Source: Mesonia sp. K7
GTDB taxonomy: Bacteria; Bacteroidota; Bacteroidia; Flavobacteriales; Flavobacteriaceae
Length of the DNA stretch: 64,000 nt
Assembly: GCF_003233725.1 (NCBI RefSeq)
Contig: NZ_QKQV01000011.1
Location: 1-64,000, forward strand
Direction of reading: 5' to 3'
Below are positions 34,182 through 39,952 of the stretch, piece by piece. Made by a program: the position numbers and the translations under genes. The stretch's first letter is position 1. Every line of letters starts with the position of its first letter. The notes under the pieces are model-generated. The model did no database searches, was not told the origin of the DNA, and saw only the letters and a program-made list of their open reading frames with translations.

Positions 34182-34216
34182 AATAATTGACGTTGAAAAA
34201 CCAAATAAATGATTTT

Positions 34217-34759
34217 ATGACCAAATATGCATACTTATTTTTTGTCTTCTTGTTGGTTAGTTGTATTCCGCTAAAAAAAACTCCGAAAATAGAAAATTAC
34301 GAAATTATCAAAGCCAAGAAGTTTAAAAAAGGCTTACCTATTTTTAACGGATTTGTATTTGAAGACCCCAAAGATGCGAATGAGTTTTATAATTATGTCA
34401 ATACCAAATACGATTTAGGTCACGATGAGGTAGAAACCAATGTTCCAGTGATTATTGAAGGTAAAAAATACTATCTTTCTTTTTATGAAACCGACCAATT
34501 AACCAAAAAGCTAAATCTAATTCCTATTTTAATAGATACCGCAACGCACAATAGTGAGGTTGATACCGATTTGAGCAGGTTTTACAGCTCTCGTGAAGGC
34601 ACTTGGTATATCCTATTGATGGTAAGTGATGATAATATGCAAGATTGTTTGTCTGCCGATTATGAAAATCAAGAACGTGTGATCGAATATTTAGAGAAGA
34701 TGAAGAATGAATATTTAACGACTCAAAATTACATGGAGGCTTATTTTAGAAGAAAATAA
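34217..34759 (+). CDS. Hypothetical lipoprotein
   Basis: 180 residues from ATG 34217 (MTKYAYLFFVFLLVSC); a TTG 30 bases earlier would bury the signal. The lipobox is LLVSC, so the protein is probably a lipoprotein facing the periplasm or surface. The mature part is mixed alpha/beta with KKYYLSFYETD and GTWYILLMVSDDNMQDC. No family recognised. Convergent with the MATE gene, 2 bases apart. Confidence 0.75.
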   Translation: MTKYAYLFFVFLLVSCIPLKKTPKIENYEIIKAKKFKKGLPIFNGFVFEDPKDANEFYNYVNTKYDLGHDEVETNVPVIIEGKKYYLSFYETDQLTKKLNLIPILIDTATHNSEVDTDLSRFYSSREGTWYILLMVSDDNMQDCLSADYENQERVIEYLEKMKNEYLTTQNYMEAYFRRK

Positions 34760-34761
34760 GT

Positions 34762-36090
34762 TTATTTATTCAAATATTTCCGCCGGAATTTAATCACTAA
34801 CGCCAAGCTCCTTATCAACATCCAAACGGTAAAGGCAATCCAAATAGCATGCAGTTGTAACCCTAATTTATCAAACAGTAAAAGCGTAGGCCAAAACCCC
34901 AAAAACGTAGCAACCATCAATACATTTCGTAAATATTTGGCTTCGCCTAAACCTTTAAAAATTCCATCAAACATAAAAGCAATGGCGTTGATGGGTTGCA
35001 TCAGCAAAACTATCCAGAACACTGAAGAAAAAACAGCGAGCACTTGAGTTTCTTTGTTGAAAATCAACCCTATTTGCTCGTAAAAGGTAAAACAAATCGC
35101 CATCAAAATAAAAGCAATGATGATCGCATATTTCGAAATGTCTTTACTCAATAACCACAATTTTTGATAGGCTTTTTGTCCGAGCAACTTTCCGCTGATC
35201 GCGTTTCCAGCATTGGCATAACCATCAATAAAGAAAGAAAAAAACAACCAAATATTCATCAGAATACTTTGTGCGGCGATATAGTTTTTACCATAATCGG
35301 TGGCGTAAGCATTCGCCAAATATATGGCAAAATTGAGTGCTGCTGTGCGTAAGAAAAAATTGGCGGCCATCAACAACATCGGCTTTAGCTTTGGATTGAT
35401 TTTCTTACGGATTTTAAACCCGAAAGGTGTCCGTTTGATGTAAAAATAAGTGGCGATGCTTAACATGACCAACTGTGCCATCACACTCGCAATCGCAGCT
35501 CCTTTTAAATGTAGCGGTTCGATAAAGCCTTCGATTCCGTAAACCAAAGCAAAATCTAAAACCACGTTTACCACGGCACCAATCAAACTGCATTGCATGG
35601 CCCAAAGCGTATTTTGCAAACCTCTAAAAACACCAAACATCGAGAAGGTAAGCAAGGTAAAAGGTAAACCCATAGCCCTTATAAAATAATAATCTTTGGT
35701 ATAGGTAAGAATCAATCCGTTGGCATTGTAAGCTGTGAAAATGGCTTGCGCGAAAAAAGTAGTAATTCCAAAAATGAGTAAGCTCAACAAAAGGTTAAAC
35801 GCAAAAGCTTGAGGAATTAAAGTTTTAACGGCGTGAATTCTGTTGGCTCCCAAATGCTGGGAAACCATCGAAGAAATGGCCGTTTTGGTTTGTGCTAAAA
35901 TCCAGATAAGTGCCGAAAGAAAAGAACCTGCAATTCCTGCGGCTGCAAGCGCTTCTACAGGATTTTCGGTCACATTTCCGATAATAGCTATATCGGTAAG
36001 AGAAATCAAAGGTTCGGCAATTCCTGCAATGATCGCCGGAATAGCGAGTTGATTGATTTCTTTAAACGATACTTTTGGAATGACTGCCAA
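34762..36090 (-). CDS. MATE family efflux transporter (DinF-like)
   Basis: 442 residues with 12 membrane helices in two similar halves, as in the DinF branch of the MATE family. N-terminal FKEINQLAIPAIIAGIAEPLISLTDIAIIG is typical. Na+- or H+-driven export of organic cations or metabolites. It lies 47 bases after an M14/AstE-like gene in the same direction, so it may export a product of that cluster; this is inference, as MATE genes are often placed independently. Confidence 0.93.
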   Translation of the reverse strand: MAVIPKVSFKEINQLAIPAIIAGIAEPLISLTDIAIIGNVTENPVEALAAAGIAGSFLSALIWILAQTKTAISSMVSQHLGANRIHAVKTLIPQAFAFNLLLSLLIFGITTFFAQAIFTAYNANGLILTYTKDYYFIRAMGLPFTLLTFSMFGVFRGLQNTLWAMQCSLIGAVVNVVLDFALVYGIEGFIEPLHLKGAAIASVMAQLVMLSIATYFYIKRTPFGFKIRKKINPKLKPMLLMAANFFLRTAALNFAIYLANAYATDYGKNYIAAQSILMNIWLFFSFFIDGYANAGNAISGKLLGQKAYQKLWLLSKDISKYAIIIAFILMAICFTFYEQIGLIFNKETQVLAVFSSVFWIVLLMQPINAIAFMFDGIFKGLGEAKYLRNVLMVATFLGFWPTLLLFDKLGLQLHAIWIAFTVWMLIRSLALVIKFRRKYLNK

Positions 36091-36137
36091 GAGCTAAAAC
36101 TTTTAAACCACAAATTTCGGAAACCAAAAGCAAATAG

Positions 36138-37046
36138 CTAATATTTAACTTCTTTTATCACAAAAAAACCGTCGTTGCCTTGTGCTTGGTATAAAGGCAT
36201 AAAAATTCGGGCGTTCCATCGGCTCCGAACTTCTTCACCGTTCTGCATAGCGAGTAGTTCTCCTTTTTTTATTTCCTGAAAGTTCTGAAAGCCGGGTTGC
36301 ATTTTAAAAGCATCATTGTTTGTTAAACCATGTCGGTATTCGATTTCGAATGTTTTTTGTTCTGGGGCATTTTTTTCAGCGAAAGCTTCTACGCAATCAG
36401 GAAAAGTTTCTATGGTGTGCAGGTCAAGGCCACAAACTTTGTGAAGGGCAAGCCAGATCATACCCTCGTGGTTTTGCGCGGAAGCTTTACTGGTGTGTTG
36501 ACCCGCTTCGAAAACAAACCCGGTCATTCCTGTTCGGCTTAGGTAATGATCGATATCCCCAGTAATAATATCACTAAAACCCTTGACAATATAAGTGGGA
36601 AACTGGTGTGCAAAATCGTTGTTGTCGTTTACATCCTGCACCGACATATATGGCAAACTATCTGAAGAAGTGGTATGGCAATCGATAAAATACCGTTTTT
36701 TGAAACCTTGTTTGTTATATTTTTCCAACACCTCGATGATTTCATACATTTCTTGTTCTTCGTGGCTTTCTATATTTGCTTTTTCCAGGTTTTCTTCTGT
36801 CCAAGTGCGGTTGAGGTCTTCATCGATATAACGTTGGTTTCTATGCAAGGCTTCCTTATTTCCTGCCACGCCTAAAATAGTTCCTTTTATAGCGGGCTTT
36901 GTTTTATGTAGTTGCTTAAAGACCTCTTGCAAAGCGAGAACTCCACTGGGTTCGTTGCCGTGGATTCCCGCCGTTACAAAAAGCATAGGGCCTTTTTCTC
37001 CTGTACTATATTCCCCTATAATTCTTGAAATTTTCTCTTGCATCAT
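36138..37046 (-). CDS. Succinylglutamate desuccinylase/aspartoacylase-like M14 hydrolase
   Basis: 302 residues. Zinc motif TAGIHGNEPSG (~26-36), Arg/Asn pair in DLNRTW (~77), zinc His in YFIDCHTTSS (~120), and the catalytic Glu candidate in FVFEAGQHTSK (~175). This layout is the AstE/aspartoacylase branch of M14, which removes acyl or amino-acid groups from small molecules. 12 bases downstream of the ATP-grasp gene. Probable third step of an uncharacterised pathway with DUF1704 and ATP-grasp proteins. Confidence 0.88.
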   Translation of the reverse strand: MMQEKISRIIGEYSTGEKGPMLFVTAGIHGNEPSGVLALQEVFKQLHKTKPAIKGTILGVAGNKEALHRNQRYIDEDLNRTWTEENLEKANIESHEEQEMYEIIEVLEKYNKQGFKKRYFIDCHTTSSDSLPYMSVQDVNDNNDFAHQFPTYIVKGFSDIITGDIDHYLSRTGMTGFVFEAGQHTSKASAQNHEGMIWLALHKVCGLDLHTIETFPDCVEAFAEKNAPEQKTFEIEYRHGLTNNDAFKMQPGFQNFQEIKKGELLAMQNGEEVRSRWNARIFMPLYQAQGNDGFFVIKEVKY

Positions 37047-37058
37047 ATTTTTATGGGT

Positions 37059-38105
37059 TTATGCCATGGTTGCCAAAAACTTGTTGGAAAGGTGGTTACC
37101 ATGCATTTCTTTGTAAGCTATTTTTCTTTCGATGGCATCAATGACCTCATCGCCAAAATCGGGATAATCAATTTCATTAAAATAATCTAAACCACCTGGA
37201 CTTAATACATTTATTTCTATGAGTTTATCTTTTACGACGTCCAATCCTACAAAAAATAAACCGTCATTGATGAGTTTGGGTGCTACTACCTCGATGATTT
37301 TTTGAAAATCCTTGTTCATTTCGACAGCTTTTGCCGTGGCACCTTGCTTGAAATTGCTTCGGAATTCGCCTTTCCCCATTTTTCTTCTTATCATCGAGTA
37401 TTTGCCGTCACGTTCTATCACTTGCCCATTCATCAAGATAATCCGTACGTCACCATCTTTGACGTCTGGCAAAAATTCTTGGGCGATTACATAGCCTTGA
37501 TTGAGTAAGGTTTCAATAATTTGGTTGAGGTTTTTTTCGTTTTCATCGATGAGGTATACATCTTTACCTCCAGAACCTTCCAAAGGTTTAAGTACCATCT
37601 TTTTATTTTGTTTTTTAAAGAAATCCAAAATATCTTCTTTCTTTCGGGTAATGATAGAGTCTGGTTTTATGCTTGACGGAAGCTCTTCAAAATACAGTTT
37701 ATCTATAAAAGCGTGGGAAAGTGCATAGGCATCGTTAAGCACCAGCACACCCTCTTGTTGCATCATTTTACCAAAAGCAACTCCCGCATGTTCTGCCCAT
37801 TGGCGTTCTATTTCTTCGGTAGGATTATTTCTAATGAAAAGAACGTCTATGTTTTTGGCAGAAATCTTTTTCTTTTTGAGATTGGCTTTTTTTACGTCCT
37901 CAATAAATTTTTTGGCAGATTTGGTCTTAATGGATTTTGGGGTTTGTATGGCATGAATACTAAGTGGTTCGTCGTGCGTGAAATTAAAATCACCTACATC
38001 CATCATAAAAACGGTATGCCCTCTTTTATGGGCGGTATGCATCAAAACTACCGAAGTGTTGTAGTTTTCCTCTCGCACATTATTTAATACAAAACATATT
38101 CTCAT
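37059..38105 (-). CDS. ATP-grasp ligase, glutathione synthetase/RimK-like
   Basis: 348 residues. An N-terminal preATP-grasp domain (MRICFVLNNVREENYN) and an ATP-grasp domain with KPLEGSGGKDVYLID (~178), QEFLPDVKDGDVRIILMNGQVI (~215) and a metal-binding DVVKDKLIEINVLSPGG (~300). Joins an amino group to a carboxylate using ATP, as in glutathione or poly-glutamate synthesis. Start overlaps the end of the DUF1704 gene (ATGA). Alone it cannot be called gshB because no gshA is in view. Confidence 0.88.
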   Translation of the reverse strand: MRICFVLNNVREENYNTSVVLMHTAHKRGHTVFMMDVGDFNFTHDEPLSIHAIQTPKSIKTKSAKKFIEDVKKANLKKKKISAKNIDVLFIRNNPTEEIERQWAEHAGVAFGKMMQQEGVLVLNDAYALSHAFIDKLYFEELPSSIKPDSIITRKKEDILDFFKKQNKKMVLKPLEGSGGKDVYLIDENEKNLNQIIETLLNQGYVIAQEFLPDVKDGDVRIILMNGQVIERDGKYSMIRRKMGKGEFRSNFKQGATAKAVEMNKDFQKIIEVVAPKLINDGLFFVGLDVVKDKLIEINVLSPGGLDYFNEIDYPDFGDEVIDAIERKIAYKEMHGNHLSNKFLATMA

Positions 38106-39952
38106 GTGTTTATCATTTTTGAGATGGGCAAACCATCTCTGATTAATTGTAATCTTTCTTTTGCTTTTGGGTTGGTTAAATAACTGGGGCGTAATTTTGG
38201 AACCTGTAATACTTGTCTGTCAGTTAGTTCGCGTATTACCTCCAAGTGCTTTAAGCTAAACTTTCCTGCCAATAGTGGTTCATACTCACCACCTTCTTGC
38301 AAGTGTTTTCGGAGTAATACCAAGCCTTTTAAGTAGATGATATCTTTTATAAAACCACCGCCTTGAAAAATCCGGGAAGTGATATTAAAAGCCGTTTCTG
38401 GAGGAAAGCCTTTTTCCTGAACCAATAACCTAAAAATTTCCTGAAAGTTTCCCCCATCGATGAGAGCTTTTCCAGCAATTACACGTCCTGCCAAGGTCCG
38501 TAATCGATGTGGTGAGAGTCCGCCTATTAAATATTCAGACATTACGGCTAAACCTTCTTGTAAGGTATCATAATCGGCTAAGCCTACACTTAATTGCTGT
38601 AAAGGCTGTTTTATACCATTATAGTAGGTAAGCACATGGGTTCCTATCTCATGTTGGATAAGTGCATGGGCTTCAGTGATACTCATTTTATAATCTGCAG
38701 GAATGTATAATTCCCCTTGGGAAACCATCATGATATTTACATCGTCTCTTAAATGCACTTTGGAAGTAAAATTTTGATCTTGCTGCCGAAAAAAGTCAAA
38801 TTCTTGATGAGCCAAACTGCTAAAATGATTCGCGTCACAAATTTCTTCTCTTGAGGGCTCTGCAGGTTCGGAAACTTCTTGTAAAATTAAATTTGCCTGT
38901 TCGCACAAATCGCTATCAACTCCTTTGTATAGACGGATGCTATTGTAGAAAAAGTTCTTGGTCCCGCGTTCGTTAAGCATACTTATCTGATGATCTAATT
39001 CCTCGCGTTTTTCGTGAAAAATATAGGACATTGTAGGGTCGTTGATGTCTTCTATTTTCAGGTTGTAAAGTTTTCTTTTTAAAATATCTGGATCTATTGG
39101 AAGTAGGCGATAATGGTAATCGATTACTTTCTCGTAATTGCTTTCAAAAAACGTTTGTTTGATGTGTTGGATGTTTACTGGAGCAACTAACCATAAAAAC
39201 TGAAAGGATTTTTCGATTTTTGCGAGTTGGTTGTCAATTTCAAAGACTTTTTGCTTTAAACTCTTTCGCCCAAGTGCGTGATAAGTTAATATAGGGTCTT
39301 TGGTTTGAACTCTTATAAAATCGAAAACCGCCTTCTGCGCAGCATTGATGAGGTAATCTCTAAATTGTCTAAAGAAAATAGGATAGAGATGCTTGTTTTT
39401 ATCCCTAAAAACGGGAGGAATTTCCAAACCTACCCATAATGCTCCAGTCTTTTTGGCATCCTCTATGGAAATAAGTGGGCCAGCACCCACTGCTTGTCTT
39501 TCGTTTACATCTTGTATTTCCGCAGAAAGGTTGATACCTTGCGACAAACCTTTAGATTTTATGAGTTCTTCCTTAAGAGTTTCTAGGGTGGAAGTAATTT
39601 TATCTGCGGGACCTTTGATATAGAACGTTCTACTATTGGCTTCTCCCAAGTACATTTCAAAAAGCATGAACGATCCAAATTTTGCGGCACGGCTGTGTGA
39701 AAGTGCTTTTATAAGTTTTTGGTATCCTTTAAAATTTTCGCTTCCAATAATGAGGTACGCACCTCCGCTGTTGATTATTTTTTGAATGCCGGTATCTTTG
39801 TTAACTTGTCTGTAAACAATGAGGTAAGGGAGGTTATCTTGAACATGCATCCAACCATTGCCGGGAAGCATGGCGTTTACTTCAGATTTTTCCTCAAGCG
39901 AGGAAAGAATCTTTTCAATAGCTTTTTTTGAAAACCTTGAAATAGTAAGCAT
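38102..39952 (-). CDS. DUF1704/QEGLA-motif putative metallopeptidase
   Basis: 616 residues. The gluzincin-like motif HEIGTHVLTYYNG is near residue 436 and TLQEGLAVMSEYL near 465; these are the marks of DUF1704 (flavohemoglobin expression-modulating QEGLA proteins), the family that includes the eukaryotic tubulin tyrosine carboxypeptidases MATCAP1/2. Both Zn His and the second Glu are present, so it should be active. The N-terminal ~330 residues are an additional domain found in bacterial members. First gene of a tightly packed set with ATP-grasp and M14 genes. Confidence 0.9.
   Translation of the reverse strand: MLTISRFSKKAIEKILSSLEEKSEVNAMLPGNGWMHVQDNLPYLIVYRQVNKDTGIQKIINSGGAYLIIGSENFKGYQKLIKALSHSRAAKFGSFMLFEMYLGEANSRTFYIKGPADKITSTLETLKEELIKSKGLSQGINLSAEIQDVNERQAVGAGPLISIEDAKKTGALWVGLEIPPVFRDKNKHLYPIFFRQFRDYLINAAQKAVFDFIRVQTKDPILTYHALGRKSLKQKVFEIDNQLAKIEKSFQFLWLVAPVNIQHIKQTFFESNYEKVIDYHYRLLPIDPDILKRKLYNLKIEDINDPTMSYIFHEKREELDHQISMLNERGTKNFFYNSIRLYKGVDSDLCEQANLILQEVSEPAEPSREEICDANHFSSLAHQEFDFFRQQDQNFTSKVHLRDDVNIMMVSQGELYIPADYKMSITEAHALIQHEIGTHVLTYYNGIKQPLQQLSVGLADYDTLQEGLAVMSEYLIGGLSPHRLRTLAGRVIAGKALIDGGNFQEIFRLLVQEKGFPPETAFNITSRIFQGGGFIKDIIYLKGLVLLRKHLQEGGEYEPLLAGKFSLKHLEVIRELTDRQVLQVPKLRPSYLTNPKAKERLQLIRDGLPISKMINT

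Follow-up and report, generated by a model that had tools for sequence, protein, structure and literature searches.

Here we describe a conserved three-gene unit of marine flavobacteria and some of their relatives, found in Mesonia sp. K7 (assembly GCF_003233725.1, contig NZ_QKQV01000011.1, positions 1-64,000; this stretch of 64,000 nucleotides is called the window below). At 34762-39952 four intact genes lie on the same strand (Table 1), encoding a long-form metallopeptidase of the MATCAP/DUF1704 (QEGLA) family, a glutathione-synthetase-like ATP-grasp ligase, a zinc deacylase of the AstE/AspA family and a MATE family transporter. The first three form the unit. We predict, with confidence that is evenly balanced, that its substrate is an acidic amino acid or short peptide with an N-acyl group, on which it runs a make-and-break cycle.

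A conserved unit of three genes

Named bacterial and archaeal genomes were scanned with an alignment of long MATCAPs, the best 80 of 379 relatives were analysed, and the open reading frames (ORFs) around these 80 loci and the window were clustered, ORFs below 70 aa not being called. The order MATCAP, ATP-grasp ligase, AstE on one strand was found in 79 of the 80 named relatives; the eightieth (L059) stops at a contig edge. The surroundings, by comparison, change from locus to locus, with 53 clusters upstream of the unit among 81 loci and 37 downstream among 79, counts that are inflated by short chance ORFs. Indeed, 72 of the 80 loci have just three gene clusters in common with the window's neighbourhood, and the printed rows identify these as MATCAP, ligase and AstE; three loci share four clusters, one shares two, and four (L054-L057, from Mesonia and Haloflavibacter) share 16-18. 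A preliminary description of the window had proposed co-occurrence in relatives as a check, with random neighbours as the outcome that would speak against a shared pathway, and random neighbours are not what is seen for these three genes.

The same description had treated all four genes as one compact set. This holds for MATCAP, ligase and AstE (79/80, and 34/34 in the reverse search below) and fails for the MATE gene, which adjoins the unit in only 4 of the 80 relatives, exactly the four that have the window's wider gene order. The MATE gene was therefore rejected as a fourth member; its adjacency is local gene order. The spacing had been read correctly: the MATCAP stop and ligase start overlap by 4 bases (ATGA), and gaps of 12 and 47 bases separate ligase from AstE and AstE from MATE, respectively.

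The linkage is also seen when the search starts from the deacylase. An AstE profile run against 395 genomes of the family gave matches in 162; among those listed, 34 are strong (E 2.2e-125 or better), and the weaker ones (E 2.3e-84 and worse) are longer frames, mostly of about 400 residues. All 34 strong homologues (32 retrieved and checked, the locus L023 of genome G053, and the window) lie beside the ligase and a long MATCAP, whereas none of eight hand-picked weaker matches (L169-L176) has MATCAP or ligase within about 5 kb (Fisher p 8e-9). Since the genomes of this search partly overlap the 80 named ones, neither test is independent of the other. Many genomes of the family carry a second AstE/AspA-like paralogue with a frame of about 400 aa, and 8/8 tested copies are unlinked to MATCAP.

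MATCAP/DUF1704 occurs in 190 of 397 sampled genomes of the family and in 12 of 198 across the phylum. Since two genomes of the window's own genus (G248, G461) have neither a MATCAP nor an AstE homologue, the unit is accessory already at the level of the genus. Some copies of the unit vary. In five Salinimicrobium-titled loci (L088, L093, L096, L098, L107) the stretch from MATCAP to AstE holds a tandem pair of ATP-grasp genes, and both copies of L088 retain the checked active-site residues. The ATP-grasp gene of L104 and the AstE gene of L101 are each split into two ORFs, possibly by frameshifts or assembly errors.

Three enzymes with preserved active sites

The kinship of DUF1704 with tubulin carboxypeptidases, recognised in the preliminary description, is borne out by profile and by fold. 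The 616-aa protein belongs to PF08014 (280.8 bits, cut-off 27), scoring below the curated cut-off of the QEGLA hypothetical equivalog TIGR02421 (315.9 vs 338.65), and an AlphaFold2 model of the whole protein (mean pLDDT 89.7) has human MATCAP (7z6s, E 2.7e-08) as its best fold match in the PDB and its sole match at E 0.001 or better. HEIGTH and QEGLA are intact, as had been noted. Across 36 long forms, picked for diversity from 81, H434, E435, G437, T438, H439, Q465, E466 and G467 are invariant in 36/36; they include the HExxxH motif and a third glutamate (H434, E435, H439, E466). Invariant positions amount to 95/383 in the catalytic part vs 13/233 in the N-terminal domain. By homology to the human EEG motif, E466 is taken as the putative third zinc ligand (PMC10499314). 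Human TMCP/MATCAP enzymes take off Tyr and Glu from C-termini and thus include deglutamylase activity, and carboxypeptidase activity on acidic tails has been demonstrated for human and Tetrahymena members (PMC10499314). Bacterial members are annotated only as 'flavohemoglobin expression-modulating QEGLA motif protein'.

The ligase matches GSH-S_ATP (165.8 bits, cut-off 23) and is a member of the NF009110 (PRK12458) subfamily, at 413.8 bits against a curated cut-off of 408. In a search with a profile of 13 ligases the nearest solved structure was E. coli glutathione synthetase (1gsa), to which three of its arginines, presumably with a role in substrate binding, can be aligned; 12 of 12 chosen positions are invariant in 24/24 rows. 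However, the ligase lies below both glutathione-synthase cut-offs (TIGR01380, 195.1 vs 299.05; NF003573, 208.6 vs 272), and the domains of GshA (gamma-glutamylcysteine synthetase), PF04107 and PF04262, have no match in the window genome, which is 99.89% complete. We therefore rejected its identification as a glutathione synthase; to label this genome's ligase 'glutathione synthetase' is misleading.

The deacylase belongs to PF24827 (AstE_AspA_cat; 72.4 bits, cut-off 25), and its nearest solved structures are succinylglutamate desuccinylase and aspartoacylase. Residues H29, E32, N79, R80, H124 and E180 are invariant in 35/35 rows, and the position of R171 is Arg in 25/35 only. As it misses the curated AstE and aspartoacylase cut-offs (59.6 vs 305.65, 65.2 vs 170 and 65.4 vs 180) and AstA (PF04958) was not found in the window genome, the AstE of the arginine AST pathway was rejected.

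The deacylase slot in other lineages

The preliminary description missed two features of this system: the occupant of the deacylase slot in other lineages, and an N-terminal domain of MATCAP that looks like a dead version of that occupant. In other lineages the slot beside MATCAP holds an N-formylglutamate amidohydrolase (FGase, PF05013), adjacent or at times fused to MATCAP; examples come from rhizobia, from Photobacterium and from other Bacteroidota. On rhizobial plasmids the genes for FGase, long MATCAP and an NF009110-type ligase follow one another; in Sinorhizobium meliloti 1021, which has the FGase form, the locus lies on pSymB near position 1,124,000. Photobacterium sp. DA100 has the ligase followed by an FGase-MATCAP fusion, and the same fusion in L016 suggests, with that of Photobacterium, that the two catalyse consecutive steps.

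We classified 32 loci. Ligase 1, FGase and a short MATCAP, the form without the N-terminal domain, occur together in 10, and ligase 1 with the fusion in 2; the fusion stands alone in 1 (L177). FGase, long MATCAP and ligase 2 make up 7 loci (including L134 and L136), and 4 add ligase 1 to these three. Long MATCAP and ligase 2 only are found in 4 (L182-L185), a symporter and short MATCAP only in 2, a solitary MATCAP-like gene in 1 (L013) and the AstE form in 1 (L023). Ligase 2 is thus present in 16/16 long-MATCAP loci. A sodium:dicarboxylate (SDF) symporter-like gene, an assignment for which Pfam was checked on the L017 copy, lies upstream, by up to about 2.6 kb, in 12/12 loci with a separate short MATCAP.

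FGase was found in none of the 80 AstE-type loci. It is present in 8 of 34 AstE-type genomes, where by coordinates 7 of the 8 copies adjoin a second, short MATCAP (the eighth, in G390, was left out). Of 198 genomes across the phylum, 12 have MATCAP, 10 have FGase and 9 have both (Fisher p 2e-12); MATCAP alone is seen in G000 and G053, which are AstE-type, and in G186, and FGase alone in G128. The FGase profile was built from the nine genomes with both, and the informative part is the absence of FGase elsewhere; the two 198-genome samples behind these counts were taken as identical, and the listed genomes agree. A quick tree was built from the C-terminal 400 residues of 48 MATCAPs; in it, the 21 AstE-type rows form one clade (SH-aLRT 100) whose sister comprises 10 FGase-type and 4 deacylase-less rows, under an outgroup that we chose and that is mostly FGase-type. 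The simplest reading, which is not proof, is that FGase was probably replaced by AstE once. FGase would have been the earlier occupant, because the N-terminal domain of long MATCAP looks like a dead FGase. The two enzymes share collinear H / DLNR / DxH motifs.

That domain, residues 1-233, is probably a catalytically dead FGase. A 17-row profile of it aligns with the linked FGases at an hhalign probability of 95.5% (E 1.4e-8, 208 columns), and a 33-row profile from AstE-type loci alone at 77.4% (E 1.9e-5), the controls with the latter giving 0.2% for AstE and 0.6% for the ligase. The FGase zinc-binding residues are missing: in 36/36 long MATCAPs the position of FGase His155 is Y/F and that of Asp153 is E, the AVHDGH and DLNR segments fall in alignment gaps, and no position of the domain holds His in more than 19/36 rows. 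Pfam gave no FGase match on 17 members (the lowest E, 0.0069 in 1/17, belonged to a family without relation to FGase); no PDB sequence matched the domain, and the FGase profile had no match among PDB sequences at E 0.1. Structure prediction of the domain, which had been proposed as a check, gave a model with a pLDDT of 87.3. Its fold matches include FGase 2q7s (rank 11, E 9.5e-4, TM-score 0.44), together with M14 carboxypeptidases, nucleoside phosphorylases and YndL, a poly-gamma-glutamate hydrolase. On this model the fold class is well supported, while descent from FGase in particular is probable and not proven. The dead domain may serve in substrate binding or regulation.

As a side observation, the FGase-MATCAP operons L015, L017, L018 and L020 lie near a DGVCNLC thiol-oxidoreductase-like gene, presumably of DCC type, and some of them also near MutS2-like and chorismate-synthase-like genes, names that were assigned by eye.

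A predicted make-and-break cycle and its rivals

The conservation of the three genes makes it a reasonable inference that they share a substrate, either a peptide-like compound or a protein C-terminus. This much of the pathway put forward in the preliminary description stands, backed by the conserved unit and the invariant active sites; its export part does not, given the four MATE neighbours in 80. The cycle that we predict would start from an N-acylated amino acid or short peptide, to whose carboxyl end the ATP-grasp enzyme would couple an amino acid at the expense of ATP; MATCAP, as a zinc carboxypeptidase, would take the C-terminal residue off again, and AstE would strip the N-acyl cap. 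Named members of these families act on Glu- or Asp-type substrates. Because these members and the SDF symporter have acidic amino acids in common, and human MATCAPs remove C-terminal Tyr or Glu, an acidic N-acyl substrate would be expected.

Several known systems offer parallels. The predicted cycle would work in the manner of the animal cycle of N-acetylaspartylglutamate (NAAG), though possibly on another molecule. That cycle consists of the RimK-like ligase RIMKL, glutamate carboxypeptidase II and an aspartoacylase, so that an ATP-grasp ligase, a zinc carboxypeptidase and an aspartoacylase-family deacylase occur in both. However, the carboxypeptidase of our unit is a MATCAP with HExxxH and not, like the animal enzyme, of family M28; its ligase is glutathione-synthetase-like, and it is a bacterial operon. 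The 'trio' operon for the osmolyte N-acetylglutaminylglutamine amide likewise keeps a ligase, a peptidase and an amide enzyme together, although these come from different families. A further parallel is given by the QEGLA/DUF1704 operons of Vibrionaceae, rhizobia and Bacteroidota, in which the same MATCAP and GshB-like ligase families stand side by side; there FGase takes the deacylase slot instead of AstE, and a MATCAP of the short form is without the pseudo-FGase domain. We take COG3930 to be the MATCAP/DUF1704 family.

Such pairs have surfaced in other work. In a Photobacterium damselae study, RS17020 (GshB, 38.4-fold) and RS17025 (QEGLA, 27.5-fold), which have consecutive locus tags, were both higher at 1% than at 3% NaCl (PMC10308900); the pair would correspond to the ligase and fusion of Photobacterium sp. 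DA100. Table 2 of a Vibrio vulnificus comparison gives VV2_1203 (COG3930) and VV2_1204 (glutathione synthetase) as clade 2-specific, and VV1_0515 (COG3930) is listed without a glutathione synthetase partner (PMC3091676). The words 'peptidase' and 'formylglutamate' are both absent from the available part of PMC4431377.

A number of observations weigh against the predicted cycle. With a ligase and a carboxypeptidase encoded in the same operon, the cycle would run to no purpose if it were not regulated. Both AstE and the ligase score below the curated cut-offs of the models for specific functions that they match, and may therefore act on substrates that differ from those of their namesakes. AstE and FGase align at an hhalign probability of only 1.1%, and their equivalence therefore rests on the motifs and the shared slot. 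The profile match between domain and FGase dropped from 95% to 77% with the larger alignment, and the TM-scores of the domain stay below 0.5 in the 50 rows listed, where other members of the fold outrank FGase. Finally, partnerless MATCAPs exist: L177, L189 and L190 have no ligase, the last two also no FGase, L013 (G186) has neither, and L182-L185 have no adjacent deacylase. In L177 (7122-9113, on a plasmid of Vibrio sp. HDW18) the fusion without an adjacent ligase reads DMYAYN in its FGase part where aligned FGases have D[MI]HSYN, and by sequence its zinc His seems to have been lost independently. An FGase operon lies elsewhere in the genome in G208, G296 and G472, and in G431 FGase stands beside a second MATCAP; such an FGase could serve the deacylase-less loci L182-L185 in trans.

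The most interesting rival is a cycle on protein tails, in which the ligase would add and MATCAP remove a residue at a protein C-terminus, while AstE or FGase would take off another group. The ligase is of the ATP-grasp family and has secondary matches to RimK-type S6 ligases, and AstE and FGase belong to the broader M14-like fold class. However, the nearest relative of the ligase, glutathione synthetase, works on small molecules, the named AstE and FGase enzymes are known to take small acyl-amino acids, and no substrate gene recurs with the unit (72 of the 80 loci share only its three clusters with the window's neighbourhood). MATCAP relatives do work on protein tails in animals and Tetrahymena (PMC10499314). 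A precedent also exists in RimK/RimB glutamylation of a ribosomal protein and the rlo operon, with an ATP-grasp ligase paired with a protease cutting its product; that protease is a retropepsin-like aspartic peptidase, the substrate is different, and the available part of the article describes no deacylase (PMC12239564). The tubulin tyrosination/glutamylation cycle (TTL/TTLL ligases, MATCAP/TMCP and the M14-like CCP enzymes) has the MATCAP family, by profile and fold, and an ATP-grasp ligase in common with the unit, which, in contrast, has no tubulin, takes its ligase and deacylase from small-molecule families and is known here from sequence. Overall we consider a protein-tail cycle unlikely. 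A more elaborate version, quite unlikely in our judgement, would have the unit as a writer-eraser cycle in bacteria that acts on acidic tails at C-termini: the ATP-grasp enzyme would do the writing, MATCAP would be one eraser and an M14-like deacylase (at first FGase, later AstE) the other, and the dead FGase domain would read the substrate. If true, the unit would be the counterpart in bacteria, and perhaps even the origin, of the eukaryotic enzymes that edit tubulin tails.

A glutathione-like thiol system that dispenses with GshA would instead have the ligase finish a peptide that contains cysteine, with the hydrolases recycling this peptide. The glutathione-synthetase fold and the aligned arginines are consistent with this, as are ligase 1 of L014, a relative that passes NF003573 (279.7 vs 272), and a rhodanese gene in four related operons (L017, L020, L179, L180). 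Rhodanese, however, is found in 0/80 AstE-type loci, and to the missed cut-offs and missing GshA domains of the window may be added 23 related genomes with PF04262 in 0/23 and PF04107 in 3/23, which makes such a system quite improbable. In carrier-peptide biosynthesis, of which the LysX/LysW and PEARL pathways are examples, the ligase would load an amino acid on the C-terminus of a carrier, modification would take place there and MATCAP would release the product. A releasing carboxypeptidase is expected of such schemes, and the ligase matches LysX weakly (46.7 bits, cut-off 275.6); yet neither a carrier gene nor a modifying enzyme is found repeatedly next to the unit in the 80 loci (among ORFs of 70 aa or more), and we regard this reading as highly improbable. 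Synthesis of a peptide followed by its export through the MATE protein has the 47-base spacing and common strand in its favour and next to no chance, since the four relatives with that neighbour all share 16-18 gene clusters with the window.

Returning to the predicted cycle on an N-acylated substrate, the unit provides a bacterial setting for the family of the human tubulin detyrosinases and deglutamylases, and with a cognate ligase and deacylase an orphan peptidase, MATCAP/DUF1704, becomes part of a predicted pathway of three enzymes, which lends itself to reconstitution in vitro. The unit also probably illustrates how a dead enzyme domain can be retained while its active counterpart is swapped for another family. 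What is new is known families in a combination for which we found no assigned function, and AstE in place of FGase. A search by title and the start of abstracts, with most subscription journals outside its coverage, returned no description of the three-gene unit; the 2009 amidoligase survey of Iyer and colleagues may cover neighbourhoods related to it.

Neighbouring genes and features of the locus

Upstream of the unit, by 109-196 bases and on the same strand, asparagine synthase B is encoded in L095, L099, L100, L113, L115 and L128. This gene was considered as an osmolyte amidotransferase and rejected, the L113 copy that was scanned being an ordinary asparagine synthase B. At the locus itself, Sigma-70-like promoters and terminators were at chance level, as was a Bacteroidota-type promoter pattern, and these patterns therefore give no evidence of transcription. 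A putative lipoprotein ORF with no Pfam or NCBIfam match lies end-to-end with the MATE gene, whose product scores 136 bits against the Pfam family MatE (cut-off 24.9).

Table 1. Genes, domain and motifs of the locus, in positions of the window
Feature	Coordinates	Strand	Details
Long-form MATCAP/DUF1704 (QEGLA)	39952-38102	minus	616 aa, PF08014; first gene of the unit
Probable pseudo-FGase domain, MATCAP residues 1-233	39952-39254	minus	degenerate N-formylglutamate amidohydrolase-like; zinc-binding His lost
HEIGTH zinc/catalytic motif, MATCAP residues 434-439	38653-38636	minus	from sequence
QEGLA motif, MATCAP residues 465-469	38560-38546	minus	from sequence
Glutathione-synthetase-like ATP-grasp ligase	38105-37059	minus	348 aa; NF009110/PRK12458 subfamily
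AstE/AspA-family zinc deacylase	37046-36138	minus	302 aa, PF24827
MATE family transporter	36090-34762	minus	442 aa, TTG start; PF01554, TIGR00797; neighbour, judged outside the unit
Putative lipoprotein ORF	34187-34759	plus	190 aa

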